A DNA stretch of 64,000 bases from Clostridium niameyense (lineage in GTDB: Bacteria; Bacillota; Clostridia; Clostridiales; Clostridiaceae). The notes under the pieces were generated by a model. It ran no database searches and was not told where the DNA came from. It saw only the letters and a program-made list of their open reading frames with translations. A program made the position numbers and the translations under genes. Below, in pieces: positions 2,343-48,066 of the stretch (its first letter is position 1; every line of letters begins with the position of its first letter). The stretch covers positions 1,392,989 to 1,456,988 of the forward strand of contig NZ_LN849007.1 of NCBI RefSeq assembly GCF_001243045.1. The letters are read 5' to 3'.

Positions 2343-2963
2343 ATGATAAACTCATTATTATTAGCAATTTCTTGTTCCTTAGATGCTTTTGTAGCTAGCA
2401 TTGCTTATGGAACAAATAAAGTTTATATACCTTTTGGATCCGTACAAATAATTAATTTAATTTGTTCTTCTTTTCTTGGAATATCACTTTTTTTAGGTTC
2501 ATTCATCAGAAGATTTATTCCTGAAAAAATAAGCATTATTATAAGTTTCATAGCTCTTTTAATATTAGGTGGTAGGTACATTTTACAAAGTGTAGTTAAA
2601 CGATATGCTAAATGTAATCCTAATTCAAAGAAGATCTTAAAGTTTAATTTATTTGACTTGAATTTTGTTTTAAATATATATACAGACAATGATAGTGAAA
2701 AATTAGAAAGTAGTACAACAATTAAATCTAAAGAAGCTTTTTATCTTGCAACGGCTCTTTCCTTGGACTCCTTAGCTGTGGGATTTGCCGGTGGTCTTGG
2801 AAATATAAACTGTTTTCAGGTAGTATTATTTTCTTTAGTTACTGATGCTATAGGAGTATGGCTAGGACTACTCATAGGTAGGAAATTAGTAGAAAAAACT
2901 AATCTAAACCTATCCTGGTTATCTGGATTAATATTAATAGGGTTGGCTTTTTCTAAATTATAA
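2343..2963 (+). CDS. ytaF: Sporulation membrane protein YtaF (MntP-related)
   Basis: A 206-residue polytopic membrane protein with about six hydrophobic segments, arranged as two repeats that each begin with a LDxxxV signature (CSLDAFVASIAYG near the N-terminus, LSLDSLAVGFAGG in the second half). This is the YtaF/MntP family. MntP exports manganese; YtaF is a sporulation-associated paralogue of unresolved substrate. AGGAGGG 6-7 nt upstream fixes ATG 2343 over an ATG 27 nt earlier. It is transcribed alone and convergently with the FabV gene. The assignment to YtaF rather than MntP rests on family resemblance and clostridial context. Confidence 0.85.
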   Translation: MINSLLLAISCSLDAFVASIAYGTNKVYIPFGSVQIINLICSSFLGISLFLGSFIRRFIPEKISIIISFIALLILGGRYILQSVVKRYAKCNPNSKKILKFNLFDLNFVLNIYTDNDSEKLESSTTIKSKEAFYLATALSLDSLAVGFAGGLGNINCFQVVLFSLVTDAIGVWLGLLIGRKLVEKTNLNLSWLSGLILIGLAFSKL

Positions 2964-2982
2964 TATATTATAATTTAAAAAT

Positions 2983-3020
2983 TAAACCTATAACTACTAA
3001 AATAGCTAGCTATAGGTTTA
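2983..3020 (-). terminator. Hairpin between ytaF and the first fabV
   Basis: A 10-bp perfect stem (TAAACCTATA / TATAGGTTTA) sits between two convergent genes. The minus-strand arm is followed by ATTTTTAAA, so it most likely ends the fabV transcript; it may act in both directions. Confidence 0.55.
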
Positions 3021-3059
3021 GATACATAGATTTTATTATGTTATATATTTATTTTTGGT

Positions 3060-4268
3060 CTATGGTTTTAACTTAAGTAATTCATCATAATCCACTTCAT
3101 CTATATCTTCTGCCCCTGGCACCATAAACCCACTTAGATTCATAAATTCTTTTTTAAATATATCAAAAGCGGCCATATCTGACTTAAAGTTTTCTTTGTT
3201 TAATTTAGAAAAAAGCTCTAAAACCTTTTTCTGAGTGTCTTCTTCAAGTTCTAAACTATCTGCTCTTAAACGTCCTTTTTCATCATAAACTGGAGAATCC
3301 CCATACATCATAGTTCTAAACATTCTATCTTTGTGCATAATTGGAGTTTCATGTGTTCCCATCTCTTTCATAACCTTATATAATGCTATGCAGTAAAGAG
3401 GCATTATTGGAATGACACAACTTGCCTTTGTAGTAACAGCCTTTGATACGCATATTAAGGCTTTCCCATTTATATCTTTTAATTTATTGTTTATAGAATC
3501 CTTATGAATCTCTGCATCAGCCTTTGCAAACCCAAGAGTTCCCTTATGATAAAAATCATATGTAACTTTAGGCCCTATATATGAATAAAGTACAGTTTTA
3601 AATCCTTCATTTAATACATTTGCATCTTTTAATGAGTTTATCCATAATTCCCAGTCTTCTCCTCCCATTACTTTAATGGTATGTTGAATTTCTTCTTCTG
3701 TAGCAGGTTTTACTGTTTGCTCAAATAAAGTTTCCGTTTCAAGATCAACATTAAATCCTTTTATTTCTTTATCTATAGTCTTAATTACAGAAGTATAAAT
3801 TTGTCCAGTATTAGGATCTATCCTCTTTGGTGAAGCAAGACTATATACAACTAAATCTATTTTTCCTCCAAATTGATTTTTTATATAACTAATTACCTTT
3901 TCTTTCATTTCATTACTAAAGGCATCTCCTATGAAATTTTTAGCAATTAGATTTTCCTTTTGAGCAAATTCTTTAAAGTATATATTATTATACCATCCGG
4001 CACTACCAAGCATTTCTTCATTCTTTGGTCCACGTTCAAAAGATACACCTATAGTATCAGCTCCAGCACCAAAGGCAAGAGAAATCCTACTTGCTAATCC
4101 ATAGCTTGAAGATGCTCCCAGTATAAGAACCTTTTTAGGTCCATTGTATTTACCCTGTTTTTTTATATAATTAATTTGATTAAGAACTTCTTGGCGACAT
4201 CCAAGGGGATTAACTGCTCTTGAAATATTTCCCTGTAATTTCGGTTTTACCTTAATTAATTTACTCAT
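3060..4268 (-). CDS. fabV: trans-2-enoyl-CoA reductase (NADH), FabV/Ter family, copy 1
   Basis: 402 residues, the usual length. It reduces trans-2-enoyl-CoA (for example crotonyl-CoA) or enoyl-ACP to the saturated thioester with NADH. The nucleotide-binding loop GASSSYGLASR is at residues 51-61. The catalytic pair Tyr240 and Lys249 sits in YHKGTLGFAK (Y-x8-K), the same spacing and numbering as in Treponema denticola Ter. AAAGGAG precedes the ATG. The gene is monocistronic and diverges from a LysR regulator; its promoter is annotated separately. A second, closely similar copy lies about 4 kb away in the CoA-transferase operon, so this one may serve lipid synthesis or be a regulated duplicate. 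Which copy is housekeeping cannot be told from sequence. Confidence 0.93.
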   Translation of the reverse strand: MSKLIKVKPKLQGNISRAVNPLGCRQEVLNQINYIKKQGKYNGPKKVLILGASSSYGLASRISLAFGAGADTIGVSFERGPKNEEMLGSAGWYNNIYFKEFAQKENLIAKNFIGDAFSNEMKEKVISYIKNQFGGKIDLVVYSLASPKRIDPNTGQIYTSVIKTIDKEIKGFNVDLETETLFEQTVKPATEEEIQHTIKVMGGEDWELWINSLKDANVLNEGFKTVLYSYIGPKVTYDFYHKGTLGFAKADAEIHKDSINNKLKDINGKALICVSKAVTTKASCVIPIMPLYCIALYKVMKEMGTHETPIMHKDRMFRTMMYGDSPVYDEKGRLRADSLELEEDTQKKVLELFSKLNKENFKSDMAAFDIFKKEFMNLSGFMVPGAEDIDEVDYDELLKLKP

Positions 4269-5466: not shown

Positions 5467-6685
5467 ATTTATTATATTTTTTACTTGTTTCTGGAAGGGT
5501 TAATACCATTACAAGATATAAACAAGAAGATACAATATAGAATACTGATGCAGCATTCCAACCATATTTTCCAAGAATCAAACTCCAAATTACTGTAAGT
5601 ACTGTATAGAAACTATATGCTATTGCCCATAAAAGTCCAAAAATAATTGTAAGCTTTTGTGGTGACATATCCTTCATTTCATGAGCAAGATTCATGTATA
5701 TAGGATACTGTATAAACATAAAGAAACCTGATATTGCTGCAAAGACATATGCTATACTTGCACTTATATTTGAAAAATATAAGACTATAGCAAAAGATAC
5801 AATCATTATAATTCCTGATATAAACATTGTCTTTTTACGAGAAATATCTGTAAGTCCTAGTTTTGTACCTAAAACAGTACCTAATATTGCAAATCCTGTT
5901 ACAAGAAGGTTAATCATACTTCCATTAATTTTAGGAGCATATTGTGGAAATGCCGCTGGGAAACTTGTAATTGAAAGTATATATAAGAAAACAAATCCCG
6001 CAAATCCTAATGAATATTTCCATACAAATGAATCCTTTAATCCATCTAAATAAGTATATTCAACTATTGAATTACCTGTAACATTTGTTTTTGTATCAAA
6101 ATCTTCTGATCCTGCAATCCATATAATGAATAAAACTACAGTGATTATTGAAACAGCTGTCATTGTAACTCTCCAATCAGCACGCATAACTTTATTCATA
6201 CTTAAAAATAATATAGCAGTTAAAAATGCACCAAAATTATAAGATACAGTATTTAATGCATTAGCTATCATTTTCTTTTCAGGTGATACATAATTTGCAA
6301 CAACCGGATTCATATAAACAACTATCATGGATCCACCTAGAGCCATTATCATACGTGCTACAGTATACGCCCAATAATTTGGCATCCAAACTGCAACTAC
6401 AGATAACATTAGAAGCCCTAGAGCAATTCTAATTGCACGCTTTGGTCCTGTTTTCATTAATATAAGCGCTGCAATGAAATTTGCAAAAACTCTTGCTGCA
6501 GTTATTGTATAGTTAATAACTTGAAGAATGACTGGTGGTACTGGACCATTGAAGAAAGTTTTAACTACCTCTCCGCCTAATGTAGAACCTGTTACCCAAT
6601 TAATTGCAAAGGCAACATAGGCAAACCATAAAACTATCAGCATTAACATGCCTTTAGAACTATTTTTTTTATTTAACTTTTCCAT
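5465..6685 (-). CDS. MFS transporter, probable organic-acid uptake
   Basis: A 406-residue major-facilitator protein with 12 predicted membrane helices. The start is at 6685, downstream of the CoA-transferase gene. The first half contains the family loop (MKTGPKRAIRIALG) and a YTVARMIMALGGSMIVVYMNPVVA helix reminiscent of CynX/OFA-type carriers. It is the last gene of an operon with a CoA-transferase, FabV and a MaoC hydratase, so a carboxylate such as crotonate or 3-hydroxybutyrate is the most economical substrate; this is inference. A hairpin between it and the CoA-transferase gene may tune its expression. Confidence 0.85.
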   Translation of the reverse strand: MEKLNKKNSSKGMLMLIVLWFAYVAFAINWVTGSTLGGEVVKTFFNGPVPPVILQVINYTITAARVFANFIAALILMKTGPKRAIRIALGLLMLSVVAVWMPNYWAYTVARMIMALGGSMIVVYMNPVVANYVSPEKKMIANALNTVSYNFGAFLTAILFLSMNKVMRADWRVTMTAVSIITVVLFIIWIAGSEDFDTKTNVTGNSIVEYTYLDGLKDSFVWKYSLGFAGFVFLYILSITSFPAAFPQYAPKINGSMINLLVTGFAILGTVLGTKLGLTDISRKKTMFISGIIMIVSFAIVLYFSNISASIAYVFAAISGFFMFIQYPIYMNLAHEMKDMSPQKLTIIFGLLWAIAYSFYTVLTVIWSLILGKYGWNAASVFYIVSSCLYLVMVLTLPETSKKYNK

Positions 6686-10494: not shown

Positions 10495-10917
10495 CTAATG
10501 CCCCTTATGTTTTTCTTTCTTTTTAATCTGCTTTAGTTGGAACTTTCTCTCTTCCATTTTATTTTTTCGCTCTTTATTAATTCTTTTATGGATTAACTTA
10601 CTTTCTTCATACTGTTTTTTTAGGGCTATTTGAGCTTTAGTGCCTATACCTTCATTTTTGGTTTCTTTTCTAACTTTTCTTTGCATCCTTTTTGGATTTT
10701 CTCGTTTTATAAATAATTTCTTATCTAGATTGGATATTATACTACTAAACTTTAAATTTTTGAATTTTTTTAATATAAATTGATGAATCTCTTCATCTTT
10801 AGGCTCCGCTCCAAAGGTCACTTTACATACTCTGTAACCCTTATTCTCATATACTTCAAATACACCTATCCAAAAAGGTTCATTAAAAAGAACTGTTAAT
10901 TTAATTGATGTTATCAT
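10495..10917 (-). CDS. yjdF: YjdF family protein (DUF2992)
   Basis: 140 residues. The N-terminal half is a compact alpha/beta segment (TSIKLTVLFNEPFWIGVFEV, YRVCKVTFGAEPKDEEI). The C-terminal half is very basic and helical, rich in KRK and KEK runs, as is typical of YjdF/DUF2992. The molecular function is not established; the family is named for its association with the yjdF riboswitch, which responds to azaaromatic compounds. ATG 10917 is chosen because AGGAGG lies 8 nt upstream; an ATG two codons earlier sits too close to it. It is a single gene with its own promoter, leader and terminator. Confidence 0.87.
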   Translation of the reverse strand: MITSIKLTVLFNEPFWIGVFEVYENKGYRVCKVTFGAEPKDEEIHQFILKKFKNLKFSSIISNLDKKLFIKRENPKRMQRKVRKETKNEGIGTKAQIALKKQYEESKLIHKRINKERKNKMEERKFQLKQIKKKEKHKGH

Positions 10918-10944
10918 AAACATCTCCTCCTGTTAAATTTAAAT

Positions 10945-11040
10945 TTCTAGAGAATGGACAACCCCAGGAGGGCAGGTTACTGCTATATTAAATTCATATA
11001 GGTTCTGACTACCAACAGAAACTGTGTTTTTATCTCTACT
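10945..11040 (-). ncRNA. Candidate yjdF riboswitch leader
   Basis: The leader lies directly upstream of yjdF. A closing helix TAGAGA (11038-11033) pairs with TCTCTA (10953-10948), and the transcription start predicted from the promoter falls right at its 5' end. Inside is a GC-rich segment unlike the surroundings, including CCCTCCTGGGG. Its CCTCCT (10971-10966) is an exact complement of the yjdF Shine-Dalgarno AGGAGG (10931-10926), so ligand-controlled masking of the ribosome-binding site is plausible. The class is assigned from the downstream gene family and layout; I could not run a covariance model. Confidence 0.7.
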
Positions 11041-11044
11041 TATT

Positions 11045-43987: not shown

Positions 43988-45853
43988 TTATATTATTTTC
44001 ATTACACTTTTGATAATACCTTCTGTATCCAGCCCTTCTGATTTATATAATAATTCTACATTACCATGAGGTACAAATTTGTCTTTAAAGGCTAAATTTA
44101 ACACTTTCGTGTTGGTATTTATACTGTTTATGTACTCTAATACCATACTGCCAAATCCACCATGAAGTACATTATCCTCTATAGTAATTATTTTATAATG
44201 ATTTTTTATAAAATAATTTAGTAAATTTTTATCTAAGGGTTTAATAAATATTGCATTAACTACTGTTACATCTATTCCTATTTCCTTTAATTTTTCCTTT
44301 GCCAACAAAGCATGTTGAACCATTTTGCCTGTAGCTATTAAAGCTATCTTACCCTCCTTGGAAATCACTTCCCATTTACCTTTTTCTATATTTACATTAG
44401 GTAAAAGTTTTAATTTCTTAATATCTCCACCTCTTGGATAACGAATAGCTATAGGTGAATTTTCATTTAATGCCCATTTTAAAATATATGTAAGTTCCTC
44501 AGTACACTTAGGTGCAACTATAGTCATGTTAGGCATATGGGTTAAATAAGATAAATCAAAAATTCCTTGATGAGTTTCTCCATCATTTCCTACAATACCA
44601 GCCCTATCTATAGCGAAAACCACAGGTAAGTTTTGTATGCATATATCATGTATTATTTGATCATATGCTCTTTGAAGAAAAGTAGAATATACAGCAAAAA
44701 CTGGTTTAAGCCCAGCTGTAGCCATACCTGCCGCTAATGTAGTAGCATGTTGTTCTGCTATACCTACATCAAAAAATCTATTAGGATAAGTTTTAGCAAA
44801 TTCTGAAAGTCCCGTACCATCTCTCATTGCTGCTGTAATAGCAACTATATTTTCATCTTCCTTAGCAAGCCTTGTTATCTCCTTGCCAAAAATCTTAGAA
44901 TAAGACACACAGGCCTTAGAATTAACCTCTCCACTATTACAGTTAAAAGGTCCTATGCCATGAAATTTATCTGGATATTTTTCAGCATACTCATATCCTT
45001 TACCTTTTTTAGTAATAGCATGAATTAAAACTGGACCTTTTATATTTTTAGCCATAGCCATAACTTCTGTTAATTCTTTTATATTGTGACCATCTATGGG
45101 TCCTAAATATTTTATACCTATATTTTCAAAAAACATTCCAGGTACAACCATTTGTTTTATACCATTTTTCATCTTCTCTAAGGATTTAGCTACACCCCTA
45201 CCTATATTAGGTATTTTTCTTAAAGTAGTATCTACTTCTGACTTAAGTCTATTATATGTAGGATCTACTCTTATTTTACTTAAATAGCTAGACATACCTC
45301 CTACATTTCTACCTATAGACATTTGATTGTCGTTTAATATTATTATAACATTAGTTTTATTAAAACCTAGATCATTTAAAGCTTCAAAAGCCATGCCTCC
45401 TGTTAGTGCTCCATCACCTATTACAGAAATTACATTATATTTATCTTTTTTTAAATCTCTAGCCCTTGCAATACCTAATGCTGCAGATATAGAAGTGCTA
45501 CTATGTCCCGTTTCAAAAATGTCATAGATACTTTCACATCTCTTAGGAAATCCACTTATTCCTCCGTACTGCCTTAATGTATTAAATTTTTCTTTTCTTC
45601 CTGTTAATATTTTATGTACATATGCTTGATGACCTACGTCCCATATAAGTTTATCTTTATCTAAATCAAAAACTTTATATATACTCAAAGTAAGTTCTAC
45701 TACACCTAAATTAGATGCTAAATGTCCTCCTGTTTTTGAAACATTTTCTATTAAAAATTCTCTTATTTCAAAAGCAAATTCATTTAACTCTTTTGTAGAC
45801 ATAGACTTTATACTATTAGTATTTTTATAATAATTATCTAGTATTTTTTTCAT
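43988..45853 (-). CDS. dxs: 1-deoxy-D-xylulose-5-phosphate synthase
   Basis: 621 residues, thiamine-diphosphate dependent. It condenses pyruvate and glyceraldehyde-3-phosphate in the first step of the MEP isoprenoid pathway. Visible are the [13 protein letters not shown] and [26 protein letters not shown] segments, the ThDP/Mg motif [16 protein letters not shown], and the pyrimidine-domain block [23 protein letters not shown] sits 9 nt before ATG 45853; an ATG two codons earlier overlaps the oapA stop. It is linked to ispA through OLE RNA and oapA. Confidence 0.95.
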
Positions 45854-45855
45854 CT

Positions 45856-46416
45856 TCATCTATCCTTTTTAAAAAAATGTATAATATTAGAAACTTTTCT
45901 CACGATTTCGTTACTATTCTTTATAGCAAAACCTTTTCCTAATGCTTTTCCTCCTATTGTTGCTGCTCCTACTAGTACTCCTATTAAAGTAGTTATTATA
46001 GTTGTATTTATATCTCCTTTGTAAGCTATAATCTTACTAGCTATAATAACTCCGATGGAACCACTTACTATTCCACATACGTCTCCTACTACATCATTAC
46101 AAAAACTTGAAACCTTATCTGCATTTCTTATAAGTTTTACCGCAATTTTTGCACCAGATACTTTATTTGCAGCCATAGAATGAAAAGGAACTTCATCTGC
46201 AGCTGTTACTGATACTCCTATTATATCAAATATTATACCAATTAATATTATAAATATTAATATAATAAAAGCTACTAACAAATTTACATTTTTTAGTAGC
46301 ACATCTGAAATAAGAGATATACTTCCAGAAAAAATCATGGACCATACTATAATGGTAGCCATCCATTTTATATTAACACTGGAATTACTCTTTTTATTAT
46401 TTTTTTTACTTGCCAA
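45856..46416 (-). CDS. oapA: OLE-associated membrane protein OapA
   Basis: 186 residues with four hydrophobic helices. OapA proteins are integral membrane proteins encoded beside OLE RNA that bind it and localise it to the membrane. The family's DxxxD motif is present ([10 protein letters not shown]). The true start is TTG 46416 with GGAGG 9 nt upstream; the longer open frame beyond it runs back into the RNA region and is not protein-like. The stop overlaps dxs. The ispA-OLE-oapA-dxs order matches the arrangement reported in Bacillus halodurans and other OLE-carrying Firmicutes. Such proteins are sometimes annotated as CorB-like transporters. Confidence 0.88.
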
Positions 46417-46440
46417 TTGACTCTTCCTCCAATAAATTAT

Positions 46441-47027
46441 AAAAAAGTGGTAATACTTTAGGTTAATTTTGCGGCTTAGGTCTAGTTGGATTTCCCATAA
46501 AGCAATCAAAATGTCGCCATTTTGACGGTTTCCCTTTAATGCCTTATCCATACAATAAAATGTATAGTACTAGATTGCCACTTAGTCCGCACTGCAATCC
46601 CTAAAATATCTCTAAAGTTAGAACAGTCTAGGAGATTTCCTCTACAGTTGGGTATATCTCTAGCCTCTTTTGCAACATAGGTTTCAGTAAGCAATAGCTT
46701 GAAAGTTTGGCCTTCCTTTCAAGTTTAGACTTAACCTCTCCCTATATCACTCAAGGCAGGCTACACTGCACATAGCATTTAGCCACATTGCAGGTTTAAT
46801 CCATTATCGTCTATAGGATATCTCTCCCTATACACAAGTAATGGTCTCCGCGAAGGTAGGGTCAATTGCGCATGCCATTGCGGTTGCCCCATCCCCCTTA
46901 CTCCCAGCACCAACCCACAACTGGGCGTCATAAGCCAGCACCAAGAGCTTCATCGATGTGCCCTTTGGCGGATTTTTAGCCCCGCCTTCAAAATATACTT
47001 ACCTGACTAGAATACTGCACCACTTTT
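46441..47027 (-). ncRNA. ole: OLE RNA (ornate, large, extremophilic)
   Basis: A 587-nt non-coding segment between ispA and oapA, transcribed on the minus strand. Its base composition is far richer in G+C than the flanking DNA. Its ends pair: AAAAGTGGT near the 5' end (47027-47019) against ACCACTTTT near the 3' end (46451-46443). A GC hairpin (GGCGG…CCGCC, about 46989-46970) lies near the 5' end. No conserved protein frame crosses it. Position, size, structure and the adjacent oapA identify it as OLE RNA, which with OapA, OapB and OapC forms a membrane ribonucleoprotein linked to stress (alcohol, cold, Mg2+) tolerance. A covariance search was not possible. Confidence 0.88.
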
Positions 47028-47175
47028 AATAAAATCTATATATTCAACAATTAAGATAAATTTCAAATTTATTAATTACTAGTGTTTCTAGCAAAGTAGT
47101 TTTTATTATATCATATAAAATTAGTTATTGCATTGGTTTATTTTTAAATTTTATTTATTTATAAACCATTTAAGT

Positions 47176-48066
47176 TTAATAATCTCTTTTTAATAAAAAT
47201 AGTGTAATATCTCTTAATTTTTCTGTGTTTCTGTCCAACTTATCTAATATATTTAAACAATCTTTAGTTAAGTTTTCACACATAGTCTTACAGTTTTCTA
47301 TACCATAAACTTTTATAAATGTAGTTTTGTTATTTTCTTCATCACTTTTTACTTTTTTACCTAATAACTTTGAATCTCCTGTTACATCTAATATATCATC
47401 TTTTATTTGAAATGCTAATCCTAACTTTTCTCCAAAATCCTCCAAGTAATTTAAATCTTCTAAACCTGCACCAGCAGCTGTAGCACCAGCTAATATAGAT
47501 GCTTTAATTAAAGCTCCTGTCTTTTTTTTATGCATATAATTTAATTGTTTTTTAGATATTTCTTTATTTTCACTTAAAATATCCACTACTTGACCACCTA
47601 TCATTCCATTGACTCCAGCTGCTTCAGATATTAAATAAGCTGATTTTAAGGCATCTAATCCATTTTCTATTGAATATTTAAACATTATATTCATAGCTTC
47701 ATTTAAAAGTCCATCCCCTGCGAGTATTGCGATAGCCTCGCCAAAAACCTTATGATTAGTAGGTCTTCCTCTTCTTAGATCATCATTATCCATACTAGGC
47801 AAATCATCGTGAATTAGTGAATAGGTATGTATCATTTCTATAGATGCTGCCATTTCTATAGCTTTATTGTAGTCTTTTTTGTAAAGTTCATAAGTATTTA
47901 AGAACAGTATGGGTCTTATTCTTTTTCCACCAGCTTCTAAACTATAGGTCATAGCTTCATATATCTTCTTATCATAAGAACCTTTATTCTTGAAATAATC
48001 CTTAAGATGTTTATCTATTTTCACCTTTAATTCTCTCATGTTTTCCATAGATTCATCAATCCCCAT
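47176..48066 (-). CDS. ispA: Polyprenyl (farnesyl/geranyl) diphosphate synthase
   Basis: 296 residues. It condenses dimethylallyl/isopentenyl diphosphates to geranyl and farnesyl diphosphate. Both aspartate-rich motifs are present: the first in LIHDDLPSMDNDDLRRG, the second in FQIKDDILDV. GKRIRPIL, the substrate-binding block, lies near residue 53. It is 9 nt downstream of xseB. The ATG 48066 has a modest ribosome-binding site; ATG 48048 is an alternative. It is upstream of OLE RNA, in one long transcription unit with the dxs genes. Confidence 0.93.
   Translation of the reverse strand: MGIDESMENMRELKVKIDKHLKDYFKNKGSYDKKIYEAMTYSLEAGGKRIRPILFLNTYELYKKDYNKAIEMAASIEMIHTYSLIHDDLPSMDNDDLRRGRPTNHKVFGEAIAILAGDGLLNEAMNIMFKYSIENGLDALKSAYLISEAAGVNGMIGGQVVDILSENKEISKKQLNYMHKKKTGALIKASILAGATAAGAGLEDLNYLEDFGEKLGLAFQIKDDILDVTGDSKLLGKKVKSDEENNKTTFIKVYGIENCKTMCENLTKDCLNILDKLDRNTEKLRDITLFLLKRDY

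Follow-up and report, generated by a model that had tools for sequence, protein, structure and literature searches.

The stretch of DNA analysed here, a window of 64,000 nucleotides, almost certainly carries a canonical full-length OLE RNA gene together with its partner oapA, where the two form part of the nusB-xseA-xseB-ispA-[ole-oapA]-dxs cluster in a species that resembles Clostridium and has a low G+C content. The identity of OLE and OapA was confirmed by the match to a covariance model, the gene order, the DxxxD motif of the protein and the covariation of the RNA. The initial annotation had recognised an OLE RNA and had named the Rfam covariance model as a check, which gave a strong match. 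Scanning of the entire window at gathering threshold returned two Rfam matches, OLE and a yjdF riboswitch, and in the first of them the OLE model RF01071 (gathering score 50) aligned over its whole length (model positions 1-616) with 539.9 bits and E 1.6e-155. On the basis of this match and of the covariation observed over 72 sequences, the full-length ole gene was placed at 46431-47039 of the minus strand. The same model gave no match in 14 control genomes, and the search of viral contigs for exact matches to one conserved 32-letter OLE pattern gave none. The limits originally proposed for the RNA and oapA, 45856-47027, turned out to be nearly exact, since oapA ends on base 45856 and the 5′ arm of the closing stem opens with base 47027. 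The size given at that time, about 590 nt, was a good approximation (the model gives 609 nt, and the distance from one outer end of the closing stem to the other is 585 nt), and the description of the stretch as GC-rich holds in a relative sense, its G+C content being 41% against 27% for the window.

The structural evidence came from the comparison with other OLE RNAs. A search of the genome collection for OapA identified at least 174 stretches that encode a relative, and the best 80 of them were kept. OLE was present on the same strand upstream of oapA in 77 of these best 80, within 170 bases in 74 of the 77, and three of the 80 were without OLE. The alignment comprised 72 OLEs, that of the window plus those from 71 of the 77 OLE-bearing loci, found by profile search; six loci (L004, L025, L033, L035, L048 and L057) were left out as truncated or split. 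Mapping of the Rfam structure on the window gave 159 pairs in the fitted line, 155 of them with letters on both sides and 148 standard. Over the 72 OLEs, 86.3% of the cells were standard and changes on both sides occurred in 131 of the 155 pairs (2322 cells). When the partners were slid by 1-3 columns as a control, these values fell to 41.0-46.7% of cells, 75-92 pairs and 453-765 cells, a gap that is expected in part because the structure was fitted to the window. With respect to the P13 region, where OapB would bind, the helices at the 3′ side of the Rfam model can be drawn in the window, one of their pairs being non-standard. Pairing was weak in three helices, which lie at RNA positions 305-353 (62% of cells pairing), 315-347 (40%) and 317-342 (58%). 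The folding energy of the Rfam structure, with non-standard pairs omitted, was -140.8 kcal/mol compared with -203.4 kcal/mol for the free fold, so that the Rfam structure is not the one of lowest energy.

In the count over the window's 609 columns, where the window is itself one of the 72 sequences, 156 columns were conserved at 97% or more, and this share of a quarter agrees with the conserved share of about 25% given for OLE in the available text of PMC12265935. These columns bear directly on the possibility that the locus is a decayed OLE copy, kept by its neighbours and no longer working. Such decay might be suspected because seven of the 155 model pairs are non-standard in the window (two in a helix with 92% of cells pairing, two in one at 80%, one at 76% and two at 58%) and because a consensus scan of 46300-47300 for sigma-70-like promoters found none on the minus strand (two were found on the plus strand, and shuffles averaged 4.4). 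Nevertheless, the window carries the common letter in all 156 conserved columns, its score of 539.9 bits falls inside the 517.7-558.8 range of the seven named relatives searched, and oapA is intact. Decay was rejected on these three grounds and is regarded as extremely improbable, leaving a canonical full-length OLE RNA as the preferred reading. The scan of 46300-47300 also displayed a terminator-like site inside OLE, at 46527-46515.

A further element of the structure is the stem that closes the RNA, formed by the 5′ arm AAAAGTGGT (47019-47027, minus strand) and the 3′ arm ACCACTTTT (46443-46451, minus strand). This stem had been named in the initial annotation, is left unpaired in Rfam RF01071 and is supported by the alignment of 72 OLEs, in which 84.3% of its cells are standard and 151 cells have changed on both sides, compared with 30.2-63.1% and 23-52 cells when the stem was slid by 1-4 columns. 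The number of pairs with any change on both sides (8 of 9, against 5-8 of 9 in the slid versions) does not separate them, so that the support rests on the paired share and the number of changed cells. The closing stem was accordingly taken as real, and with its covariation it would be a candidate for inclusion in RF01071.

The OLE region also contains the site where, according to the available text of PMC9723947, the k-turn bound by OapC is located. In the letters of the window, CGAUGAAG (46948-46955, minus strand) corresponds to the 5′ strand of the reported region and GUAAGG (46896-46901, minus strand) to the other strand. Among the relatives printed, CGAUGAAG was found in 9 of 9 and GUAAGG in 6 of 9; in the complete alignment, CGAUGAAG is present in 49 of the 72 OLEs, the window included, and absent from the other 23. 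By its letters, the window contains the putative k-turn region for OapC. Several aligned OLEs show a long insert replacing the UUAAGG strand.

The position of the RNA in the genome was equally characteristic. Pfam domains gave the order nusB-xseA-xseB-ispA-OLE-oapA-dxs-tlyA-nadK-argR-recN-spoIVB, where tlyA and recN are designated as "-like" genes, and thus bore out the order ispA, OLE, oapA, dxs that had been read from the sequence. The upstream neighbour, the polyprenyl synthetase gene ispA, lies at 47176-48066 of the minus strand (PF00348, E 4.2e-62), and the downstream neighbour, the DXP synthase gene dxs, at 43988-45859 of the minus strand (PF13292, E 1.3e-122), its frame sharing 4 bases with the end of oapA. 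The available text of PMC12265935 already describes ole as clustered with genes of this type. The yjdF (azaaromatic) riboswitch lies far from OLE, at 10938-11043 of the minus strand (86.6 bits), and just downstream of it a 142-aa frame (10495-10923) is probably yjdF.

The partner gene oapA occupies 45856-46416 of the minus strand and encodes, from a TTG start, a CNNM-like membrane protein of 186 aa with DVVGD at residue 108. The aspartates of this DxxxD motif, which had been noticed from the sequence, are kept in all of the best 80 of at least 174 loci (74 DVVGD, 6 DVIGD). The protein is hydrophobic, and its hydropathy windows near residues 18-41, 33-76, 108-132 and 136-159 make the earlier description as a four-helix protein plausible, in the sense of about four hydrophobic regions. 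It passed the Pfam CNNM cut-off narrowly (31.2 vs 28.4 bits) and NCBIfam returned no family above cut-off; OapA-sized matches in six relatives were found some above and some below the CNNM cut-off. Both the CNNM relation and DxxxD as the hallmark of OapA are already reported in what is available of PMC11332333.

A ribosome-binding site, GGAGG (46426-46430, minus strand), was read by eye directly after the RNA and nine bases before TTG 46416, which supports the TTG start proposed initially. Contrary to what had been suggested, the start was not unusual: when a simple heuristic rule, a Shine-Dalgarno-like word before an in-frame start, was applied to 78 sequences (the window and the 77 loci from the best 80 of at least 174), TTG was called in 33, ATG in 13, GTG in 6 and no start in 26, and the same rule gave TTG in 7 and ATG in 1 of the eight close relatives printed, so that a TTG start is common for oapA. 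The longest oapA frame runs back into OLE as far as an ATG at 46551, making fair the warning that gene finders tend to push the start into the RNA. This extension, together with the fact that oapA directly follows, is also what would be expected if the stretch of about 590 nt, instead of being a separate RNA, consisted for the most part of coding sequence that extends oapA at its N-terminus, or were an untranslated leader of that gene; moreover, the open frame reaches OLE in 35 of the 78 sequences and has an in-frame start codon there in 12 (again from the best 80 of at least 174). The RF01071 match and the covariation over 72 sequences speak against this idea, as do the GGAGG placed before TTG 46416, the in-frame stop that separates the OLE end from the oapA start in five of the eight close relatives printed (L002, L003, L005, L009 and L010), and two genomes, G009 and G010, in which OLE and oapA are non-adjacent, on separate contigs. 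A coding extension was rejected on this evidence, and it is scarcely credible that the stretch is anything of this sort; the arrangement remains that of an OLE RNA gene followed by a separate oapA.

The survey of relatives placed this pair within a broader group. By E-value, the closest among the matches listed came from C. rectalis, C. muellerianum and C. peptidivorans, with 64-72% protein identity, which implies that the window's own species is absent from the best 80 of at least 174. A full OLE with oapA was present in five Clostridium species, C. rectalis, C. muellerianum, C. peptidivorans, C. ihumii and C. sulfidigenes, all of them mesophiles. The RNA of a cryo-EM structure of OLE is that of C. 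acetobutylicum (available text of PMC12286853), and OLE has been reported in 2,822 Bacillota genomes (available text of PMC11332333). Given the five species and the C. acetobutylicum structure as described there, a mesophilic Clostridium host is nothing unusual, and the surprise implied by the initial annotation at meeting OLE and OapA in an ordinary mesophilic-looking Clostridium finds no support. The pair in the window is an unremarkable representative of a family already known and surveyed, and such pairs are known also from ordinary clostridia.

Some of the other loci depart from the usual arrangement. The three of the best 80 (of at least 174) without OLE upstream of oapA are L053 (genome G008), L066 (G009) and L074 (G010); in L066 the upstream sequence extends for only about 560 bases, and each of these genomes has one OapA match. 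In both G009 and G010, OLE is found on another contig than oapA, in G010 directly after ispA on the same strand. The pair seems to be split in these two genomes and should act in trans. OLE was not found in G008 (Candidatus Butyricicoccus), an assembly that may be incomplete; OLE adjoins oapA in two other Butyricicoccus loci, L025 and L062. In L030, where the two elements lie at 2806-3473 and 5926-6513, a gap of about 2.5 kb holds a 779-aa frame, and in L037 the two are separated by about 1.4 kb.

The partner proteins were sought in seven relatives (G001-G007), comprising the five Clostridium species, Thermosediminibacter and Caloramator. The initial annotation had described OapB as L7Ae-like, an attribute that belongs to OapC, OapB being a KOW protein in the available text of PMC12054373. 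A homologue of OapB was found in all seven; that of C. rectalis sits between map and infA and matches the solved OapB 7k9b with E 3.9e-11. The KOW Pfam family PF00467 missed OapB, and its 11 matches, whose frames measure 106-113 and 175-188 aa, were taken as RplX and NusG. L7Ae-family matches occurred twice per genome in all seven relatives, 2 of the 14 crossing stop codons, and each of the two genomes whose surroundings were read has one such gene between rpoC and rpsL, an interval that we take to be the place of ybxF/oapC. Gene names in these ribosomal clusters come from the reading of translations.

The same seven relatives were inspected for MpfA-type transporters. In the Clostridium species, CNNM matches in frames of 419-454 aa, taken as MpfA-type, numbered one in G001, G003 and G004 and two in G002 and G005, and G003 showed an extra weak match over two stop codons. 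The CNNM match of Thermosediminibacter was its OapA only, and in Caloramator the CNNM search gave no match, its own OapA included. Both are thermophiles. The presence of full-length CNNM transporters beside OLE in the five Clostridium species, and not in the two thermophiles, raises the idea that in mesophilic clostridia the OLE particle plays a role apart from that in extremophiles, beside MpfA-type Mg2+ transporters and replacing none of them; this is an unlikely proposal, for which seven genomes are too few to carry more. That some species carry OLE and MpfA together has already been stated in the available text of PMC11332333.

The published model of OLE was worked out in Halalkalibacterium halodurans. 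In the available texts of PMC9723947, PMC11332333 and PMC12265935, the RNA of about 600 nt is bound by OapA and thereby brought to the cell membrane, the KOW protein OapB and the L7Ae-like OapC also bind it and may help its folding, and the resulting particle gives cells protection from cold, from short-chain alcohol, from Mg2+ and from poor carbon sources. The window's organism would be expected, by homology, to transcribe the RNA, to localise it at the membrane, to bind it with these proteins and to use it under stress. The locus adds one species more to a large family that has already been surveyed, and its value is limited. It is an uncomplicated example, from a low-GC host resembling Clostridium, that alignments can use, and it recalls that the word "extremophilic" in the name of OLE is not a rule.

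In comparison with known systems, OapA of the window has a CNNM-like membrane domain in common with the MpfA/CorC-type CNNM Mg2+ transporters. In MpfA proteins the CNNM domain is followed by tandem CBS domains and a CorC domain (available text of PMC11332333), unlike the 186-aa OapA, in which Pfam found no CBS or CorC domains. With known OapA proteins it shares the location immediately after OLE, some four hydrophobic regions, the DxxxD motif and the CNNM-like character, the difference noted being how narrowly it lies above the Pfam CNNM cut-off. Finally, the RNA resembles known OLEs of the full-length RF01071 class, such as those of C. acetobutylicum and H. halodurans, in length, structure, conserved letters and placement between ispA and oapA/dxs, and the differences found correspond to ordinary sequence divergence and nothing more.
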